Both the position numbers and the translations under genes were made by a program. Positions 5,812 to 18,072 of a DNA stretch of 64,000 bases are shown here, piece after piece. This stretch comes from Verrucomicrobia bacterium IMCC26134 (GTDB taxonomy: Bacteria; Verrucomicrobiota; Verrucomicrobiia; Opitutales; Opitutaceae). How positions within the stretch are numbered: position 1 is the first letter of the stretch; each line of letters begins with the position of its first letter. The stretch lies in contig CP011265.1 in assembly GCA_000972765.1 (NCBI GenBank), positions 3,841,001 through 3,905,000 of the forward strand, read 5' to 3'. The notes under the pieces are model-generated. The model searched no databases. It had not been told where the DNA came from and saw nothing but the letters and a program-made list of their open reading frames with translations.

Positions 5812-6555
5812 TTAAAGGCCGAGGGTGAACTGGTCGTCGGGCGGGGCGGCGCTGGCGGGGGTGAGGCAGGCGGGGTCGTCGTGTTCGAGGTGGTTGATGC
5901 GGCGGATGAGTTCGGTGGAGGCGAGCAGGTCGTCGGCAGCTGGTTGGAGCAGGGCGCCGAGCGCGGCGGGCGGGGTGGCGGGGTCGAGCCAGAGGTGCGC
6001 GGCTTGAGTGTCGAGCAGGGCGGGCATGCGATCGTGGATGGGGGCAACGGTAGGGTTGGCGGCGGTGGTGACGAGGGCGCACGTCTCAAGCGGGGCGCCA
6101 TCCAAGGCGGGCCAGATTTCCCAAAGGGCGGCGAAGAAAAAGGCTTGGCCATCGCGGCGGCGGAACAGCCACGGGTGCCGGGAGCGGCCGCGCGCCTCCC
6201 ATTCGTAGAAGGCGGAGGCGGGCACGACGCAGCGGCGGTGGCGGAAGGCGTCGCGAAAGGCGGGGCGCTCGGCGAGCGACTCGGCGCGGGCGTTGACGGA
6301 GGGGCGGGTGGCGTCGCGGGCCCAGGAGGGGATCAATCCCCAGCGCGGGTTGAAAATCGCGTTTGAGGCGGGTGTGCGGGCGACGTCGCCGGTGGATCTG
6401 GCTGCGACGGAGCGGAGAGCCAGGAGCGAGGTGCCGGGAGCGATGTTGTAGCGGGTGGCGTTTGTGGTGGCTGCGAGCTGGGCGAGCGAGGCAGGGTCGA
6501 GGGCGGCGATCAGGGCGCGGAGGCGGTCTTGCTCAAGCACGAAGCGGGTGCACAT
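5812..6555 (-). CDS. SOS response-associated peptidase (YedK/HMCES family)
   Basis: SRAP proteins form a covalent thiazolidine crosslink with abasic sites in single-stranded DNA and protect them. The active residue must be Cys2 after Met removal, which fixes the start at the ATG at 6555 (MCTRF) rather than further upstream. The other conserved residues are present: Asn88 in SVNARAES, Glu118 in FYEWE and His174 in PIHDRMPALL. The protein is 247 residues, a normal length. It lies between the HIT gene and holA on the same strand. No LexA box was identified. Confidence 0.92.
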   Translation of the reverse strand: MCTRFVLEQDRLRALIAALDPASLAQLAATTNATRYNIAPGTSLLALRSVAARSTGDVARTPASNAIFNPRWGLIPSWARDATRPSVNARAESLAERPAFRDAFRHRRCVVPASAFYEWEARGRSRHPWLFRRRDGQAFFFAALWEIWPALDGAPLETCALVTTAANPTVAPIHDRMPALLDTQAAHLWLDPATPPAALGALLQPAADDLLASTELIRRINHLEHDDPACLTPASAAPPDDQFTLGL

Positions 6556-6638
6556 GGCGGAGCACGATGCGGGCGCGGGCGGAGTTGGCCAGTCTGCGCT
6601 GGCGATGAGCAAGGAGCCGGGGAAGGGCGGTCGGCGGC

Positions 6639-7070
6639 TCAGCCGAGGGCTTGGCGGAGGCGGGCGCTTGTGGCGGCGTAGTCGGCCTCGGAGAGGAGCT
6701 GCTTCGGCTCTGGCATCATGGTGAAGGTGGTGCCCCAGGCCGGACCGTCGGTGTATTTTGGCACGAGGTGAAAGTGGAGGTGGGGGAGCTTGTCGGAGTA
6801 GGCGCCGTAGTTGATCTTGGCGGGGTTGAAGGCGGTTTTGATGGCGCGGGCGGCGCGGGCTACGTCCTGGGTGAAGAGGGCGAGTTCGGAGTCGTTGAGT
6901 TCGAAGAGCTCATTGACGTGGCCGCGGTAGGCGACGATGCAGCGGCCGGGGTGGGTTTGCTCTTTGAAGAGATAGAGGGTGGAGACCTGGAGCGGGGCGA
7001 CCTCGATCATGAGGGCGTCGAGGCGTTCGTCTTTGCGGCAGTAGAGGCAATCAGGGAGGGGGGAGGACAT
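6639..7070 (-). CDS. HIT family nucleotide-binding protein
   Basis: A 143-residue histidine-triad protein. The triad HLHFHLVP (His97, 99, 101) is the catalytic motif that hydrolyses or transfers nucleoside phosphoramidates and dinucleotides. An N-terminal CLYC pair (Cys8, Cys11) suggests a bound zinc, as in some Fhit/GalT-like branches. The exact substrate is unknown. It ends 83 bp before the SRAP gene on the same strand and is divergent from the oxidoreductase at 7244. Confidence 0.88.
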   Translation of the reverse strand: MSSPLPDCLYCRKDERLDALMIEVAPLQVSTLYLFKEQTHPGRCIVAYRGHVNELFELNDSELALFTQDVARAARAIKTAFNPAKINYGAYSDKLPHLHFHLVPKYTDGPAWGTTFTMMPEPKQLLSEADYAATSARLRQALG

Positions 7071-7243
7071 GGTGATAAGAGAGCGGACAATCCCGGGCGC
7101 GAGGAGGGCGGGCGGCTGGAATCAGTTTCAGAGTAAGCTGAATAACCGGAGAGAGTCGCCTGAAAAACATTCTAACTGTCTTTTCGTGGGTCGTTTGATT
7201 CTCGGTGGCATTTAGCGTTTCATGGGTTTTAACGTATTGCCTG

Positions 7244-8476
7244 ATGTATCGAGTCACGAACTTCCCCGTCGCTGTGGCACAATCTACTTTGCCTAGATTG
7301 GCACTGATAGGGATTTCTGGCTATGGTGCGATCTATGTCGGTTTACTGCGCGAGGCGCTGCTTGCGAAGTCTGTGAGTCTCGTCGCCGCCGTGGTGATAA
7401 ACCCCGGGCAGGAGCAGGAGATCGTGGCCGAGTTGCGCGCCGGAGGGACAGTGATCTACGGGTCGGCCGACGAGTTGTTTGCCTGTGAGGCAGGCAAGAT
7501 AGACCTTTGTCTAATTCCTACGGGAATTCAATGGCACGCGCGGATGACGATCGCGGCGCTCACCGCGGGTATGAATGTGCTGGTGGAGAAACCGCTCGCC
7601 GGTTCGGTGGCGGATTGCGCGGCGATTCGCCGGGCCGAGGTTGCGACCGGGTGCTGGGTTGCGGTGGGGTTTCAGGATATTTACGCCGATGAAGCCCGCC
7701 GCTTGAAAAGCCAGTTGCTTGAGGGGGCGATCGGGCGATTGCGCGAGGTGAAGATGACCGGGTTGTGGCCCCGGCCGCGTTCTTATTTTACCCGCAACCA
7801 CTGGGCCGGGCGTCGCGCGGCGGACGGGGCCTCCGTGCTGGATTCGCCGCTTAACAACGCCTTCGCGCACTTCGTAAACCTCGGCCTGTTTTTCGCCGGT
7901 TCGACTGCCGGCACATCCGCAAGTGTCGCCGTGGAATCCGCCGAGCTGTTTCGGGCCCACGCCATAGAGACCTTCGACACGGCGGTGGTTCGCGGAGTCT
8001 CTTCGCACGGAGTGCGTTTTTGGTGCGGTTTCAGCCATGCCACCGAGACCACGCGGGAACCTGAAATTCTTCTTTACGGTGATGAGGGATGTGTCGAGTG
8101 GAGGCACGAAACGAGCTGCGTCACGACGCATGCCGACGGCAGGCGCGAGACCGTTGCGCTGCCTACGGCCGCTTCATGCCGAGGCTCGATGTTTGCCGCC
8201 GTGCTCGCCCGGCTTGCGGATGCCGGATCGTCTATTTGCGACACGGACGTGGCCTGCCGGCATGCGGAGTTCATTGAAGCCGTGCAAAACGAGGCGGTGA
8301 CGCGTCCGTTTCCAGAGACACTGGTCAGCTGGCGCGCGGATGCCGCCGAACACGGCGAGTTTCCTAACGTGCGCGGCCTTGATGTTGCGATCGACCGCGC
8401 TTTTTCACGGGGCGGCTTGCTCGGGTCTCCGGACGTATTTTGCAATCAGTCGCTGCACGCCGCCACTGGCCGTTGA
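7244..8476 (+). CDS. Gfo/Idh/MocA family NAD(P)-dependent oxidoreductase
   Basis: The N-terminal Rossmann fold shows LALIGISGYGAIY for dinucleotide binding, and VEKPLAG is the conserved EKP motif that carries the catalytic lysine. The remainder is the usual alpha/beta C-terminal domain. Members oxidise or reduce sugars, inositols and related polyols, but the substrate here is unknown. I use the ATG at 7244 (410 residues). A GTG at 7205 is possible, and the conserved fold itself only begins about 17 residues into the protein. No neighbouring sugar genes are present. GC content and codon use look somewhat more relaxed at the 5' end than in the flanking genes. Confidence 0.8.
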   Translation: MYRVTNFPVAVAQSTLPRLALIGISGYGAIYVGLLREALLAKSVSLVAAVVINPGQEQEIVAELRAGGTVIYGSADELFACEAGKIDLCLIPTGIQWHARMTIAALTAGMNVLVEKPLAGSVADCAAIRRAEVATGCWVAVGFQDIYADEARRLKSQLLEGAIGRLREVKMTGLWPRPRSYFTRNHWAGRRAADGASVLDSPLNNAFAHFVNLGLFFAGSTAGTSASVAVESAELFRAHAIETFDTAVVRGVSSHGVRFWCGFSHATETTREPEILLYGDEGCVEWRHETSCVTTHADGRRETVALPTAASCRGSMFAAVLARLADAGSSICDTDVACRHAEFIEAVQNEAVTRPFPETLVSWRADAAEHGEFPNVRGLDVAIDRAFSRGGLLGSPDVFCNQSLHAATGR

Positions 8477-12654: not shown

Positions 12655-15627
12655 TCAGGCGCCGTGGCAGTTTTTGAACTTCTTGCCGCTGCCGCATGGG
12701 CAGGGGTCGTTGCGACCGACGTTGGCGAAGGGTGTCGCCGCCTGCGCGCGTATCTTGGGTAGTTCGATCTCCTTCTTGGCGGCGGGCTCTTTGGCGGTCG
12801 GGGCTTTTACCGCCTCGCCGGCCGTTTCCGGACCGGCTTGCAGCGCGTTCTTTGAAAGCATCGAAAGCATGTTTTCGAACACTTGCAGGTTCGACGCGCT
12901 GCGGAACAAGCCGGTGCAGATTTGCAGGCGCACGCTCTGCATGAGCTCCTCGAAATACTTGTAGGCCTCGCCCTTGTATTCCACCAGCGGGTCTTTTTGG
13001 CCGTAGCTGCGCAGGCCGATCGAGCGGCGCAGCTCCTCCATCTCGGTGAGATGCTCCTGCCAGTGGTGGTCGATGGCGTTGATGATGACGTAGCGCTCGA
13101 TCGAGGCCAGGGCCTCGGGAATCTCCACCGACTCCTTGATGCCGTAGGCGGCGCGGACGCGGTCGGTGATCATCTTGGCGAGGTTGTCGGCGGACTGTCC
13201 GGCAAGCTCAGTCTGTTTAAGGCTGATGGGGAAGTGGGTGTTGCACCAGCCGACCAGACCCTCGGAGGCGGCGGCGGTGGCTCCGCCCTTGCCCGCGTAA
13301 CCGGCGGCCTCGAGGCGGGCGTAAACCTCCTCCTCGACCTGCTCGAAAATGATGTCCTTGGCGCGCTCGGCGTGGATGGCGGCGTTGCGAATGCCGTAGA
13401 CGACCTCGCGCTGCTGGTTGAGCACGTCGTCGTATTGGAGCAGGCGTTTGCGCTGGGAGAAGTTCTGCTGCTCGACCTTTTTCTGGGCGCTCTCGATGGA
13501 GCGGTTGAGCCAGGGGTGCTCGAGCTCTTCGCCGTCTTTCATCGAGCCCTCCATCATGCGCGAGGCGAGGTTGCCCTGCAGGAAGAGGCGCATGAGGTCG
13601 TCCTCGAGGGAGAGGAAGAACTTGGTCAAGCCGGGGTCGCCCTGACGCGAGCAACGGCCGCGCAGCTGGCGGTCGATGCGGCGGGATTCGTGGCGCTCGG
13701 TGCCGATGACGTAGAGGCCGCCCAGCTCGCGCACGCCCTCGCCGAGTTTGATGTCGGTGCCGCGGCCGGCCATGTTGGTGGCGATGGTGACGCCGCCGCG
13801 CTGGCCGGCACGGGCCACGATCTCGGCCTCCTGCTGGTGGAACTTAGCGTTCAACACCGTGTGGATGATGCCGGCGCGCTTCAACATGCGCGAGAGCACC
13901 TCGGAGGACTCGACGGAGACGGTGCCGACGAGGACGGGCTGGCCGCGCTTGTTGGCGAGTTCGATCTCCTTGACCACGGCGTTGAATTTGTCGCGGCGGG
14001 TTTTGAAAATGGAGTCGTTTTTGTCTATGCGGATGCAGGGGCGGTGGGTGGGCACGACCTGCACGGTGAGCTTGTAGATGTCGTGGAACTCGGTGGCCTC
14101 GGTCTCGGCGGTGCCGGTCATGCCCGCGAGTTTCTCGTAGAGGCGGAAATAGTTTTGGATGGTGACGGTCGCGTAGGTGCGGGTCTCGCGCTCGATGGTG
14201 ACGTTTTCCTTGGCCTCGACGGCCTGGTGCAAGCCGTCGGACCAGCGGCGGCCCGGCATGACGCGGCCGGTGTTCTCATCGACGATCATGACCTTGCCCT
14301 CTTGCACGACGTATTGGACGTCACGCTCGTAGAGCGAGAAGGCGCGGAGCAGCTGCGAGATGGCGTGGATATCCTCGGAGATGGCGGCGAAATCCTGCTG
14401 GGCGGCGGCGCGTTTGGACTCCTTTTCCTCGGGAGTGAGAACCGGGTCGCGCTCGAGATCGCTGAACTGGGTCGCGAGGTCGGGCAGCATGAAGGCGTCG
14501 GGATTATCCGGACGGAGGAGGGTGCGGCCCTTCTCGGTGAGGTCGGCCTGATGCTGCTTCTCGTCGATGGAGTAGAAGAGCTCCTCCTTGAGTTTGTAAT
14601 ACTCGGTCTTTTGGAAGTCGGACTGGTATTCGATTTCGGTTTTATCGAGGAGCTTGCGCCATTCGGGTGCCTCCATGAGGCGCATGAGGAGCTTGTTCTT
14701 CGGATTGCCGATTTTGACCTGAAGCATGCGCAACGCGGCCTGTGCGCGCTCGTCGGCGGTGGGGGCGGGCTTCTCGAGGACGGCCTTGGCCTCGGCGACG
14801 AAGCTGTTGCAAAGACGGAGCTGCTCGCCGACGAGTTTTTGAACCGGCGGCAGGAGGCGGGTGAAGGGTTGCTCGCGCTCGATCGGAGCGGGGCCGGAGA
14901 TGATCAAGGGCGTGCGCGCCTCGTCCACGAGGATGGAGTCGATCTCGTCCACGATGCAGAACCAGTGGTCGCGCTGCACCTGGTCGTCCTTGCGGGTGGC
15001 CATGCCGTTGTCGCGAAGGTAATCGAAACCGAATTCGGAGGCCGTTCCGTAGGTGATATCGCAGGCATACATCTCGCGGCGCTGCTCGGAAGGCATCTGT
15101 TGCTGAATGCAACCGACGGAGAGGCCGAGGAAGCGGTAGAGATGCCCCATCCACTCGGAGTCGCGGCGTGCGAGGTAGTCGTTGACGGTGACGAGCTGGG
15201 CGTTGCGGTTGGCGAGGGCGTTGAGGTAGAGTGCGCTGGTGGCGACGAGGGTCTTGCCTTCGCCGGTGGCCATTTCGGCGATGCGACCCTGATGCAGGGC
15301 CATGCCGCCGATGAGCTGCACGTCGAAGTGAACCATGTTCCATTCCAGCTCCTGGCCGCAGACCAGAGCGCGGGTGCCGACGAGGCGGCGGGCGGCATTC
15401 TTCACCGCCGCGAAGGCTTCGGGCAGGATGGCTTCAAGGGCGGCGTGCTTGTCTTTGGCCTCGGCTAGGCGAGCCTTGAACTCGACGGTTTTGGCGCGCA
15501 GCTGCTCGTCCGAGAGGGCGCGATACGATTCATCGAGCTCATTGATACGCGCCACGACGGGACGCGCCTTCTCGAGGAATTTGCGGTAGTGGCGGCCGGC
15601 AAAAGGCTTGAACAGTAACGACAACAT
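12655..15627 (-). CDS. secA: Protein translocase subunit SecA
   Basis: SecA is the ATPase that drives preproteins through SecYEG. The start at the ATG at 15627 ([11 protein letters not shown]) gives 990 residues. The open frame continues about 880 bp upstream, but that part is antisense to the coiled-coil gene. Visible parts are Walker [10 protein letters not shown] (about 119-126), the DEAD-like [15 protein letters not shown], the second motor domain [10 protein letters not shown], and a C-terminal SEC-C zinc motif [13 protein letters not shown]. It is longer than the 901-residue E. coli protein, partly because of an insertion after residue about 240 rich in [12 protein letters not shown] and YKLKEELFY. 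Similar insertions occur in PVC and Bacteroidetes SecA. Confidence 0.97.
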
Positions 15628-15795: not shown

Positions 15796-17511
15796 ATGAA
15801 AATTCCCTCTGAAGCCCCCCGACTGCCCGCCCTGCCCTTTGTGATAGCGGATGCCCTCCTGCTGCTCGCCGCCGCTCTTATCGGCTGGCAGGCTCCTGCG
15901 CCACTTGGCGTTGCGCCTCTCGCCGCCATCTCCGCCTGCGTCGGCCTGGCCGCTATCACCGGCCTGCTTCCGCTCATCCTCAATTTCAGCCGCGCCCAGG
16001 ACGAGGCCCTGCAAGACCGTGCCAACCAGATCGAGGCCCTCGCCCGCACCGTCTCCGCCACGGCCGATCAAGTCAGCATCGCCGCCGCCAACCTGCCTGC
16101 CACCGCCGCCACCATTGCCCAGCAACTGGAGGCGGCCAAAGCCCTCCCTGCCCTCCTGCAGGCCCAGCTCAAGGAGGTCCAGGCGCAGGCCGCCTTCGCA
16201 GCTACCGCCAACAACGCCACCGCCGCCTCTTCTGTCAGCGAGCACGCCGCGCTGCGGGAGGAGGCCGACTCCCTGCGTCGGGAACTCACCGCCCTCCGTG
16301 AGGCCGACACCACTCGCTTCACGACCGCCGTCGCAGGCATTACCCGTGCGACGGCTGAGATCGCCACTTTCGAAGCGCTTGCCAAACAACACGCCGAAGT
16401 CATCGCCCGGCTGCCCGCCCTTTCCGCAGACTCGACCCGCCAGACGGCCGAGGCCTTGGAAAAAGCCGTCGCCGCCGCCATCGCCCGCCTGGATGCCGCC
16501 GCTGCGCAAACCCGTGCGACCCTCGAAGCCTCCGCCACCTCGGCCGTGACCGATGTCACCACTGCGCTGGATCGCACCACCAAGACCGGCTCCGCCGCTA
16601 TGAGCGCCGCCCTCGAAACGGCTGCCGCCGCCGCCCGGGCGTCCCTTGCCAACGCCATCGAAGCCAACCTGAAAACTGCGACGGCCACCCTAGGCGCATC
16701 CATTGAAAAACTGTCTCAGGCCGCAGTCTCCATCCCCTTGCAGGTCGTTCCGAAAAACCTCCCGGTCTCGAGTCAATCAATGATTGATAAGCCTGCCATG
16801 GTCGCGCCGGCTCCAGTTGCCACTCAATCGGCTGCAGGCGCGTCGAAGGTGGCGACTCCAGCTGCGCCAGCGGCCGCGACTACGGTTGCGGCGGTGGCTA
16901 CGACTGCGGGCATCGTGGCGACGCCCGTTGCCCAGGTGGTGCGTGCTTCTGCCGCCTCGGTTTCGGTTGCCTTCGTGCCCGCGCCTTCCGTTGCAGTTGC
17001 GCCCGCTCCAGCCGTCGCCGCCGCTCCGGTCGCATCAGCTCCGGTTGCCACCAAGGTTGCGGTCGCGCCTGCTCCAGCTCCGGCCGCCCCGACACCGGCT
17101 CCGGTTAAGCCTGCACCGCTTCCTCCTTCACCGCCCCAGGCGCCCGCAGTCGTTGAAGAGGCAAGCGACGAAGACGAAGAAGGCGCGGCAGAGCATGCCT
17201 CCGAAGCTGAGGCCGCGAACGTCCCGCCGTCTGAGCCCGCGCTTTCCAGCGACGGTCTTACGCGGCTGGTCGCCACCGCTTACATCGGTATTGGCAATAA
17301 ACTGTTTATCCGTGGCGACGGCCCCGGCCTGAGTCTTACCAAGGGCACTCCGCTGCAGTTCATTTCGATCGGCAAATGGCGCTGGGAAAACCCCGAGCTC
17401 CTCTTCCCCGCCAAGGTCCGCCTCTACAAAAACGACCAGATCGAGTGCACTGCCCTCGGGGAGTTCACCCTTGAGCCGGGTCATCACCACGAGGTGACCG
17501 CGACTTTTTGA
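15796..17511 (+). CDS. Membrane-anchored coiled-coil protein with Ala/Pro linker and unknown C-terminal domain
   Basis: From the ATG at 15796 the 571-residue protein has two hydrophobic segments (about 14-31 and 37-60). A long Ala/Glu/Leu-rich helix of coiled-coil type follows (about 65-330), then a low-complexity Ala/Pro/Val linker (about 340-475), an acidic patch [10 protein letters not shown], and a compact last domain of about 85 residues. That domain contains [31 protein letters not shown] and [11 protein letters not shown], and looks like a small beta-rich fold. I do not recognise it. The architecture resembles a membrane tether presenting a domain on a stalk. It shares a 168-bp intergenic region with divergent secA. 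Confidence 0.7.
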
Positions 17512-17577: not shown

Positions 17578-18072
17578 ATGAGCCGCAACGTCGTCACGTT
17601 TCACTACACGCTTAGGGATACCGCCGGACAGGTGCTGGACGCCTCCATCGGCGGCGAACCGATCAGCTTTCTCGAAGGCTCCGGCCAGATTGTGGAGGGC
17701 CTGGAGGAAGGCATGCGCGGCCTCGCGGCCGGGGTGAAGGCCAAGGTCGGCGTGCCTGCGGCCAAGGCCTACGGCGAACGCGACGAGACCCAGGTGCAAC
17801 GGGTGCTAAAGTCCCTCCTTCCCGTGGAGGGCGAGATCAAGCCCGGTGACCAGTTTCGTGCGGGTGAGGATGCCTTCGCGCCGATCGTGACGGTGCGCGG
17901 TGTCGAGGGGGACGAACTCTTGCTCGACGCCAACCACCCGCTGGCGGGCTTGGACTTGGAATTCGAGATCGAGGTGCTCGCGGTGCGCGCGGCCACGAAT
18001 GAGGAATGCGAACATGGTCACGCACACGGCGGTGGCGGTTGCGGCAACCACGACTGCGGCTGCAAGAGCTGA
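17578..18072 (+). CDS. slyD: FKBP-type peptidyl-prolyl isomerase, SlyD family
   Basis: A 164-residue cytoplasmic prolyl isomerase/chaperone. The FKBP core has VTFHYTLRDTAGQVLDAS and FLEGSGQIVEGLEEGMRG, with the inserted-in-flap chaperone domain (about 70-125) that marks SlyD. The last 25 residues are a His/Cys-rich tail (EHGHAHGGGGCGNHDCGC) like that of E. coli SlyD, which binds nickel and other metals and feeds hydrogenase maturation. No hydrogenase genes are near, so here the tail may serve general metal storage. It converges with the ArnT-like gene. Confidence 0.93.
   Translation: MSRNVVTFHYTLRDTAGQVLDASIGGEPISFLEGSGQIVEGLEEGMRGLAAGVKAKVGVPAAKAYGERDETQVQRVLKSLLPVEGEIKPGDQFRAGEDAFAPIVTVRGVEGDELLLDANHPLAGLDLEFEIEVLAVRAATNEECEHGHAHGGGGCGNHDCGCKS

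Follow-up and report, generated by a model that had tools for sequence, protein, structure and literature searches.

A membrane-stalked protein of Opitutales with a predicted CBM20-fold domain and a basic-tailed paralogue: a candidate tether for alpha-glucan storage

Verrucomicrobia bacterium IMCC26134 encodes, within the 64-kb stretch of DNA that was analysed (hereafter the window), a protein in which a membrane hairpin, a helical stalk and a disordered linker lead to a compact C-terminal domain whose modelled fold is recognisable as the starch- and glycogen-binding sandwich of CBM20/25/41/48. A short protein encoded elsewhere combines the same domain with a basic tail, and most carriers of the domain have both. 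The reading that accounts best for these observations, tentative and with chances that we put just short of even, is that the stalked protein tethers the alpha-glucan (glycogen-type) storage of Opitutales to the inner membrane and places granules together with a glucan-binding short partner. The family has no name and its fold is a known one; the novelty lies in the new layout in which this CBM20-fold domain is set and in the distinctive paralogue that accompanies it.

Layout of the stalked protein

The open reading frame that ends at 17511 on the forward strand is open from an in-frame ATG at 15796, which gives a protein of 571 residues. Its parts and its two neighbours are the following.

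15796..17511, + strand: coding sequence of 571 residues, with membrane hairpin, helical stalk, Ala/Pro linker and C-terminal domain of predicted CBM20 fold (open reading frame and full-length AlphaFold2 model)
15832..15981, + strand: membrane hairpin, TM1 at residues 13-32, a short turn and TM2 at about 39-62, the end of TM2 being approximate (hydropathy and AlphaFold2 helices)
15982..16719, + strand: predicted helical stalk, residues about 63-308 (AlphaFold2 helices 39-98, 100-142, 147-203 and 210-308)
16720..17250, + strand: disordered Ala/Pro linker, net acidic, residues about 309-485 (pLDDT mostly below 50 over 306-473)
17251..17508, + strand: C-terminal domain of predicted CBM20 fold, 86 residues (AlphaFold2, Foldseek and VIA)
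12655..15627, - strand: secA, a divergent neighbour not judged to be a member of the system (open reading frame and synteny test)
17578..18072, + strand: SlyD/FKBP-type peptidyl-prolyl isomerase, downstream neighbour, likewise not judged to be a member (PF00254, E 2.1e-13)

The full-length AlphaFold2 model, built from the 571-residue protein and 43 orthologues, has a helix over residues 13-32, another over 39-98 and more helices up to residue 308, followed by a stretch of some 170 residues that is mostly of low confidence (about 306-473) and a confident beta domain that extends to residue 571; with a mean pLDDT of 71.9 and a pTM of 0.29, it does not predict the relative placement of these parts. 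Two adjacent membrane segments are also apparent from hydropathy. Judging from the predicted helices the stalk is probably a coiled coil, and its juxtamembrane portion is conserved in the alignment of stalked sequences. The preliminary description of the window had proposed a membrane anchor, a stalk, a linker and a compact conserved end domain of about 85 residues, and hydropathy and AlphaFold2 bear out this layout, with 86 residues for the domain; the sequence elements that it had singled out (a further 25 residues and LYKNDQIEC) all lie within the last 93 residues. Searches of the whole protein against Pfam and NCBIfam gave matches to FlxA, alpha-xenorhabdolysin and FliH models far below the cut-offs, and these identities were set aside as weak and confined to the helical part, save that the FliH match also enters the linker.

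A starch-binding fold that sequence searches do not name

The terminal domain was modelled by AlphaFold2 from the window domain and 80 relatives with high confidence (pLDDT 95.9, pTM 0.86), and the model consists of strands with no helix of four residues or more. A Foldseek search against the PDB returned 913 matches with E values up to 10, among which the sole one below 0.001, at rank 1, is the CBM20 of human STBD1 (8x8k_C, E 5.6e-4, 16% identity in the alignment); rank 2 (E 7.5e-3) is a protein other than a starch- or glycogen-binding one. By their descriptions 26 of the best 50 of the 913 are starch/glycogen-binding modules (CBM20, 25, 26, 41, AMPK/SNF1) or carriers of them, and the rest are other proteins. 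Re-alignment of 996 of the top chains with VIA-align 2 gave a best Z of 10.9 for the CBM20 of a cyclodextrin glucanotransferase (84 residues, 2.2-2.4 A) and 72 chains at a Z of at least 8, below which a match may reflect a mere common arrangement. Among the best 50 VIA entries, 49 are described as starch-binding modules or their carrier enzymes, and the remaining one is the phosphatase 4rkk, which we take to be laforin. The domain had been regarded as unrecognised: this stands in so far as no Pfam or NCBIfam model names it, but not for its fold, predicted to be a known CBM20-type sandwich; the suggestion of a binding module is plausible.

The sequence link to CBM20 runs through the short form. 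PF00686 gave no family match with the window domain, only 4 of 37 members matched it weakly (best E 0.0072), and at an E value of 0.001 or less it matched in none of the 38 genomes searched. The profile of the short family, compared by hhalign with five CBM20 sequences, scored 34.6 (probability 83.6%), against a maximum of 26.6 in 200 column-shuffled controls (mean 11.9, s.d. 3.0) and 14.3 for the reversed profile; the stalked profile alone scored 14.3 (probability 0.8%), no better than the controls, and there was no pairwise match between the window domain and STBD1 (BLASTP E 0.76). Sequence searches of the PDB found nothing below E 0.29 for the window domain, a single weak match for the short-family profile (the C-terminal part of AmyA, E 0.059) and none for a mixed profile. 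The stalked and the short family are plainly homologous (hhalign E 3.1e-25), so that structure ties the stalked form to CBM20, sequence ties the short form to it, and homology ties the two forms to each other. The window domain itself has the fold of CBM20, but it does not reach the PF00686 sequence threshold and does not have the site-1 tryptophan pair; for this reason we do not assign the stalked protein to CBM20.

Distribution and the two copies

Matches to the last 93 residues occur in 33 of 38 genomes, the organism's own included, usually as two per genome, and 29 columns of the 86-residue domain are invariant in 81 sequences; this is much more conservation than chance would give, in keeping with the supposition that this domain is well conserved. 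In a phylum sample searched with a 37-row profile, in which at most 18 candidates were scored per genome, 43 of 288 Verrucomicrobiota genomes had the domain, and all 43 fall in the order of the window, which is called Opitutales here from the organism titles (mostly Opitutaceae, Opitutae or Verrucomicrobia, with a few Akkermansia). Far from being without homologues, a possibility raised in the preliminary description, the domain is plentiful within that order, with 145 of 177 genomes positive. Confinement to Verrucomicrobiota, which that description had named as a point to check, agrees with the sampled carriers, all of one order, but fails for one actinobacterial protein: on the Kitasatospora indigofera plasmid NZ_CP108209.1 (L131:2890-4029) a copy of the domain with both site tryptophans kept, 39% identical over 82 residues (E 1e-14 in pairwise comparison), is N-terminal to a PF00756 esterase annotated as alpha/beta hydrolase-fold, and thus exists outside Opitutales as an enzyme module. 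Phage records held no match to the domain, and 65 pattern matches in viral contigs yielded no confirmed case. The loci compared below are the best 80 of 303 relatives from a contig profile scan, and a wider spread is possible.

When copies were split into long and short at 260 residues (one frame of 268 was taken as long), 34 of the 43 carriers had one long and one short copy, three had the long form only and six the short form only. In small genomes the copy listed is the short form: in the ten positive genomes of 1.1 Mb or less among the matches listed, all open frames have 112-176 residues. The organism's own short paralogue (G000:C1:2834867-2835118, - strand, equivalent to L031:6868-7119, - strand) is located at a distance of 1.0 Mb, where folP-like and acyltransferase-like genes, named by eye from sequence, adjoin it; it belongs to a form found across the order, and its Lys/Ala/Pro tail has a net charge of +17. 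The tail is net positive at 20 of 20 short-form loci, ranging from +5 to +35, and two tails are alike. At L050:3877-4443, the same gene as in L030, the tail is Cys/Ser-rich rather than Lys-rich, with +5. An NCBIfam match of the short protein to BcsB (E 0.0014) was rejected as far below the cut-off. The short, basic-tailed copy is the most informative part of the system and is invisible from the window alone.

Site residues kept and lost

All 19 sequences of the short family have W28, W42, K56 and W64, which the hhalign alignment sets at the places of glucoamylase W543, W563, K578 and W590; of these, W543 and W590 make up site 1 and W563 is part of site 2. The stalked family departs from this pattern. 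Position 65, at the W590 place, is E in 80 of 81 sequences and P in the other, and is never W in 29 more broadly drawn stalked sequences; position 29 corresponds to W543 and holds W in 58 of the 81, all of them among the 66 from outside the window's genus, whereas each of the 15 rows from within it has L, R or T. The window domain carries L29 and E65, and because it is without the site-1 tryptophans, classical glucan binding by this particular domain is doubtful on sequence grounds. R5, R21, W43, W45, K60-N61-D62, C66 and E81 are all invariant in the 81 stalked sequences, W45 being an addition relative to the short form and W43 the second-site tryptophan, and mean column identity over the domain is 80%. 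In the mammalian glycogen receptor STBD1, whose W293 occupies the place of W28 in the short form, mutation of this residue abolished amylose binding, as given in the part of the source drawn on here (PMC4076837).

The loss of the W590 equivalent from every stalked sequence read is what could be expected if the stalked domain were a CBM20 fold that has lost sugar binding and become a protein-binding adaptor at the membrane, with a partner unrelated to glycogen and with the short form alone binding glucan. An invariant and partly charged residue set, such as is seen in 81 of 81 sequences, is likewise more typical of one fixed partner. We nevertheless regard this explanation as unlikely: W43 is kept in 28 of the 29 broader sequences and replaced by Y in the other, W29 persists in most stalked domains outside the genus, 34 of 43 carriers combine the stalked form with a short form whose site is intact, and in one clade the glycogen synthase gene lies directly downstream of the stalked gene.

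Topology and charge

The charges that flank the hairpin favour a stalked protein with both termini inside. Lysines and arginines were counted in 79 of 89 stalked sequences, ten being left out (seven too short or cut, three without a hydrophobic segment in the scanned part), and their means are 1.57 before the hairpin, 0.54 in the turn and 2.53 after it, with no lysine or arginine at all in the turn of 40 of the 79. By the positive-inside rule this pattern would place both ends of the hairpin, and so the C-terminal domain, in the cytoplasm. By eye, the sequence before the hairpin shows no separate signal peptide. All 44 stalked sequences examined for linker charge have a net negative stretch of 140 residues in front of the domain. 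A linker motif spotted by eye, LxLDL, was dropped, as it occurs in just 10 of 89 sequences.

A domain on the other side of the membrane, where it would bind envelope or imported polysaccharide, is improbable in the face of this charge pattern and with no separate signal peptide seen. The members of the PF00756 family often act on extracellular glycans, and the Kitasatospora esterase that carries the domain thus belongs to the observations that speak for a periplasmic location, as does a PF01510 amidase-type cell-wall enzyme that lies within a few kilobases in 10 of the 66 loci outside the genus. Still more improbable is a general structural stalk for membrane or nucleoid organisation in which the domain serves as a homotypic clasp and has nothing to do with carbohydrate. 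The membrane-near part of the helical stalk is conserved and paralogues with opposite linker charge could pair together, but all 19 short forms keep the complete glucan site, which would be difficult to account for if sugar binding were not under selection.

Gene neighbourhood

In the window secA is indeed divergent from the stalked gene, on the minus strand at 12655-15627, as the preliminary description had noted, but homologues do not stay near it. Of 14 loci from the window's genus, 10 have the two genes side by side; among the four others, two extend upstream and two are cut. The pair was seen in none of the 66 loci outside the genus, 54 of which have at least 4 kb upstream; in one of these outer loci the resemblance to SecA is limited to 20 residues of its C-terminal motif. 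The linkage to secA was dropped as a functional clue, the adjacency being at genus level only. The SlyD/FKBP isomerase occurs at the window's own locus alone among L001-L130, many of which are short.

Within the genus, glgA, the gene for glycogen synthase, is directly downstream of the stalked gene and on the same strand in 3 of 14 loci, 13 of the 14 holding at least 600 bases downstream.

L057, + strand: glgA at 6356-7876, 94 bases after the stalked gene
L060, + strand: glgA from about 3239, about 100 bases after the stalked gene
L055, + strand: glgA from 6308, cut by the contig end, at the matching place

These three loci form one clade with a support of 100/100, and therefore represent a single evolutionary event that could be due to chance; by rough estimate such a neighbour is unexpected by chance within the genus and less so over all loci scanned. 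A search for five glycogen enzymes in L001-L130 found no glgA neighbour at any of the 66 loci outside the genus. The window locus (L001) gave no match to GlgA, GlgB, GlgC, GlgP or GlgE queries, and GlgA, GlgB and GlgE had no match anywhere in the 64 kb; the isomerase occupies the place of glgA in the window, and the organism's own glgA is found elsewhere in its genome. Apart from the three glgA genes, the five queries had a single match in L001-L130: at one of the 20 short-form loci (L045:3725-4885) a GlgC relative, 68% identical to that of the organism's own genome, lies 1.4 kb from the short paralogue; on a rough estimate of ~3,300 genes per genome a single such match is unsurprising by chance.

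Other neighbours recur at the 66 outer loci: a response regulator (PF00072) in 17, a DUF255/thioredoxin protein (PF03190) in 17, a small protein with no Pfam match in 18, the PF01510 amidase mentioned above, and two loose clusters in 21 (one representative being a gamma-glutamyltranspeptidase, PF01019) and 25 (no Pfam match). None of them is a glycogen gene and none is present in half of the 66 loci, and we read them as lineage synteny, in sets that overlap only partly. Five neighbour proteins from three loci, used as probes, were found at no more than two loci each.

Glycogen genes in carriers and non-carriers

The organism's genome encodes glgA, glgB and glgP over the cut-off and a glgC that falls just short of it (420.5 bits, with the cut-off at 424.9). 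A second glgA match in this genome, at G000:C1:2016964-2018397 (- strand), contains one in-frame TGA and is possibly a pseudogene or a sequencing error. In the order as a whole glgA is over the cut-off in 144 of 177 genomes, and its presence does not discriminate carriers of the domain from the rest: 121 genomes have both, 24 the domain only, 23 glgA only and 9 neither (Fisher p 0.14). The 24 domain-only genomes include 19 with a branching enzyme and 12 with a GlgE domain over the cut-off, 21 having at least one of these, and the branching enzyme is also over the cut-off in 26 of 32 domain-negative genomes; GlgE was sought in the domain-only genomes. The co-occurrence of glycogen genes fits an alpha-glucan role without favouring it, and is uninformative.

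A GlgE domain is present in 10 of the 11 domain-only genomes of one family, f16. The f16 genomes without GlgA over the cut-off and with the GlgE N-terminal domain are G150, G165, G186, G356, G368, G377, G416, G423, G432 and G448, a pattern suggesting that they have gone over to making glucan by the maltosyltransferase route; GlgA is retained in other members of f16.

A tether for alpha-glucan granules?

If the stalked protein is a tether, its two-helix hairpin would anchor it with both ends in the cytoplasm, and the helical stalk and the acidic, disordered linker would hold the CBM20-fold domain away from the membrane. The partner would be the short protein encoded elsewhere, with the same domain and a basic, histone-H1-like Lys/Ala/Pro tail, which may bind glucan via its intact tryptophan site and DNA (or another polyanion) via the tail, and the stalked protein would fix the granule machinery to the membrane. 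Since the stalked domain of the window's genus is without the glucan-site tryptophans, its contact is probably of a kind other than classical glucan binding, and may be made via a second Trp-rich face (W43/W45), with the short partner or with a glycogen enzyme. The tether reading is supported by the fold, the sequence link of the short family to CBM20, the kept site residues, the pairing of copies, the glgA order in one clade, the lysine and arginine pattern, the opposite charges of tail and linker, and the glycogen genes of the organism's own genome. It is weakened by the loss of site tryptophans from the stalked form and the lack of a sequence link between this form and CBM20, by the uninformative co-occurrence and by a glgA adjacency that counts as one event, as well as by the carriers with the short form only (6 of 43) or the long form only (3 of 43). 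A more specific version, rather unlikely in our view, is a two-protein granule-placing system of Opitutales in which the H1-tailed glucan binder attaches granules to the nucleoid and the membrane stalk attaches them to the envelope, perhaps together with glycogen synthase.

Bacterial cyclodextrin glucanotransferases and fungal glucoamylase are secreted enzymes. Their CBM20 has the fold predicted for the domain described here (VIA Z up to 10.9) and the short form has the same site residues, but the domains of both forms are below the PF00686 threshold. The closest likeness in layout is STBD1 (genethonin-1), the source of the best Foldseek match, in which a hydrophobic N-terminal membrane anchor and a linker precede a C-terminal CBM20 with the W293 binding site, according to the portion of the paper used here (PMC4076837). 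The stalked protein shares this order of membrane anchor, linker and C-terminal CBM20-fold domain, but has a two-helix hairpin and a long helical stalk where STBD1 has a single N-terminal stretch, is bacterial, has a basic-tailed short paralogue, and in the window's genus has no W at the W293 place. The layout common to the two looks convergent.

In plant starch-granule initiation a glucan-binding CBM protein, PTST2, is placed by a membrane-anchored coiled-coil protein, MFP1, which determines the sites of granule formation, as outlined in the excerpted source (PMC10801857); there the coiled coils are on MFP1 and the CBM on PTST2, whereas here the stalk itself carries the CBM-fold domain. The Chlamydomonas proteins SAGA1 and SAGA2, in the part of a preprint available to us, also use CBM20 to localise starch to another structure (PMC12874041), but they differ from the stalked protein in having Rubisco-binding motifs and in acting at the pyrenoid. 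The basic tail has its own parallel in AlgP of Pseudomonas aeruginosa, whose abstract describes a KPAA-rich H1-like tail, association with polyphosphate granules and a need for the protein in granule spacing, with chromosome tethering as a speculation (PMC9239181). The short paralogue has a Lys/Ala/Pro basic tail of this kind across the 20 loci, the Cys/Ser-rich one at L050 apart; AlgP acts on polyphosphate, not glucan, and its abstract mentions no CBM-fold domain.

In the titles and abstract beginnings of the open-licence literature no paper was found on a bacterial CBM20 or glycogen tether or on such a domain in Opitutales. According to the consulted part of a 2025 study (PMC12706056), glycogen undergoes phase separation in E. 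coli and is a driver of macromolecular rearrangement and of asymmetric division; the main text of that study contains none of the terms 'tether', 'glycogen-binding' and 'membrane-anchored'. The consulted part of the description of Lacunisphaera has glycogen only among the listed substrates and no match to 'granule' or 'storage' (PMC5303756).

A fold can now be assigned to a domain that is without a Pfam or NCBIfam match and yet present in 145 of the 177 genomes of its order. If the two-protein version is true, the stalked protein and its partner would be the bacterial equivalent, of independent origin, of STBD1 and of the PTST2/MFP1 pair of plants. A dedicated pair of CBM-fold tether proteins in a bacterial order would open granule placement to direct tests through gene deletion, and would suggest that membrane anchor and CBM20 came together independently in bacteria and animals.
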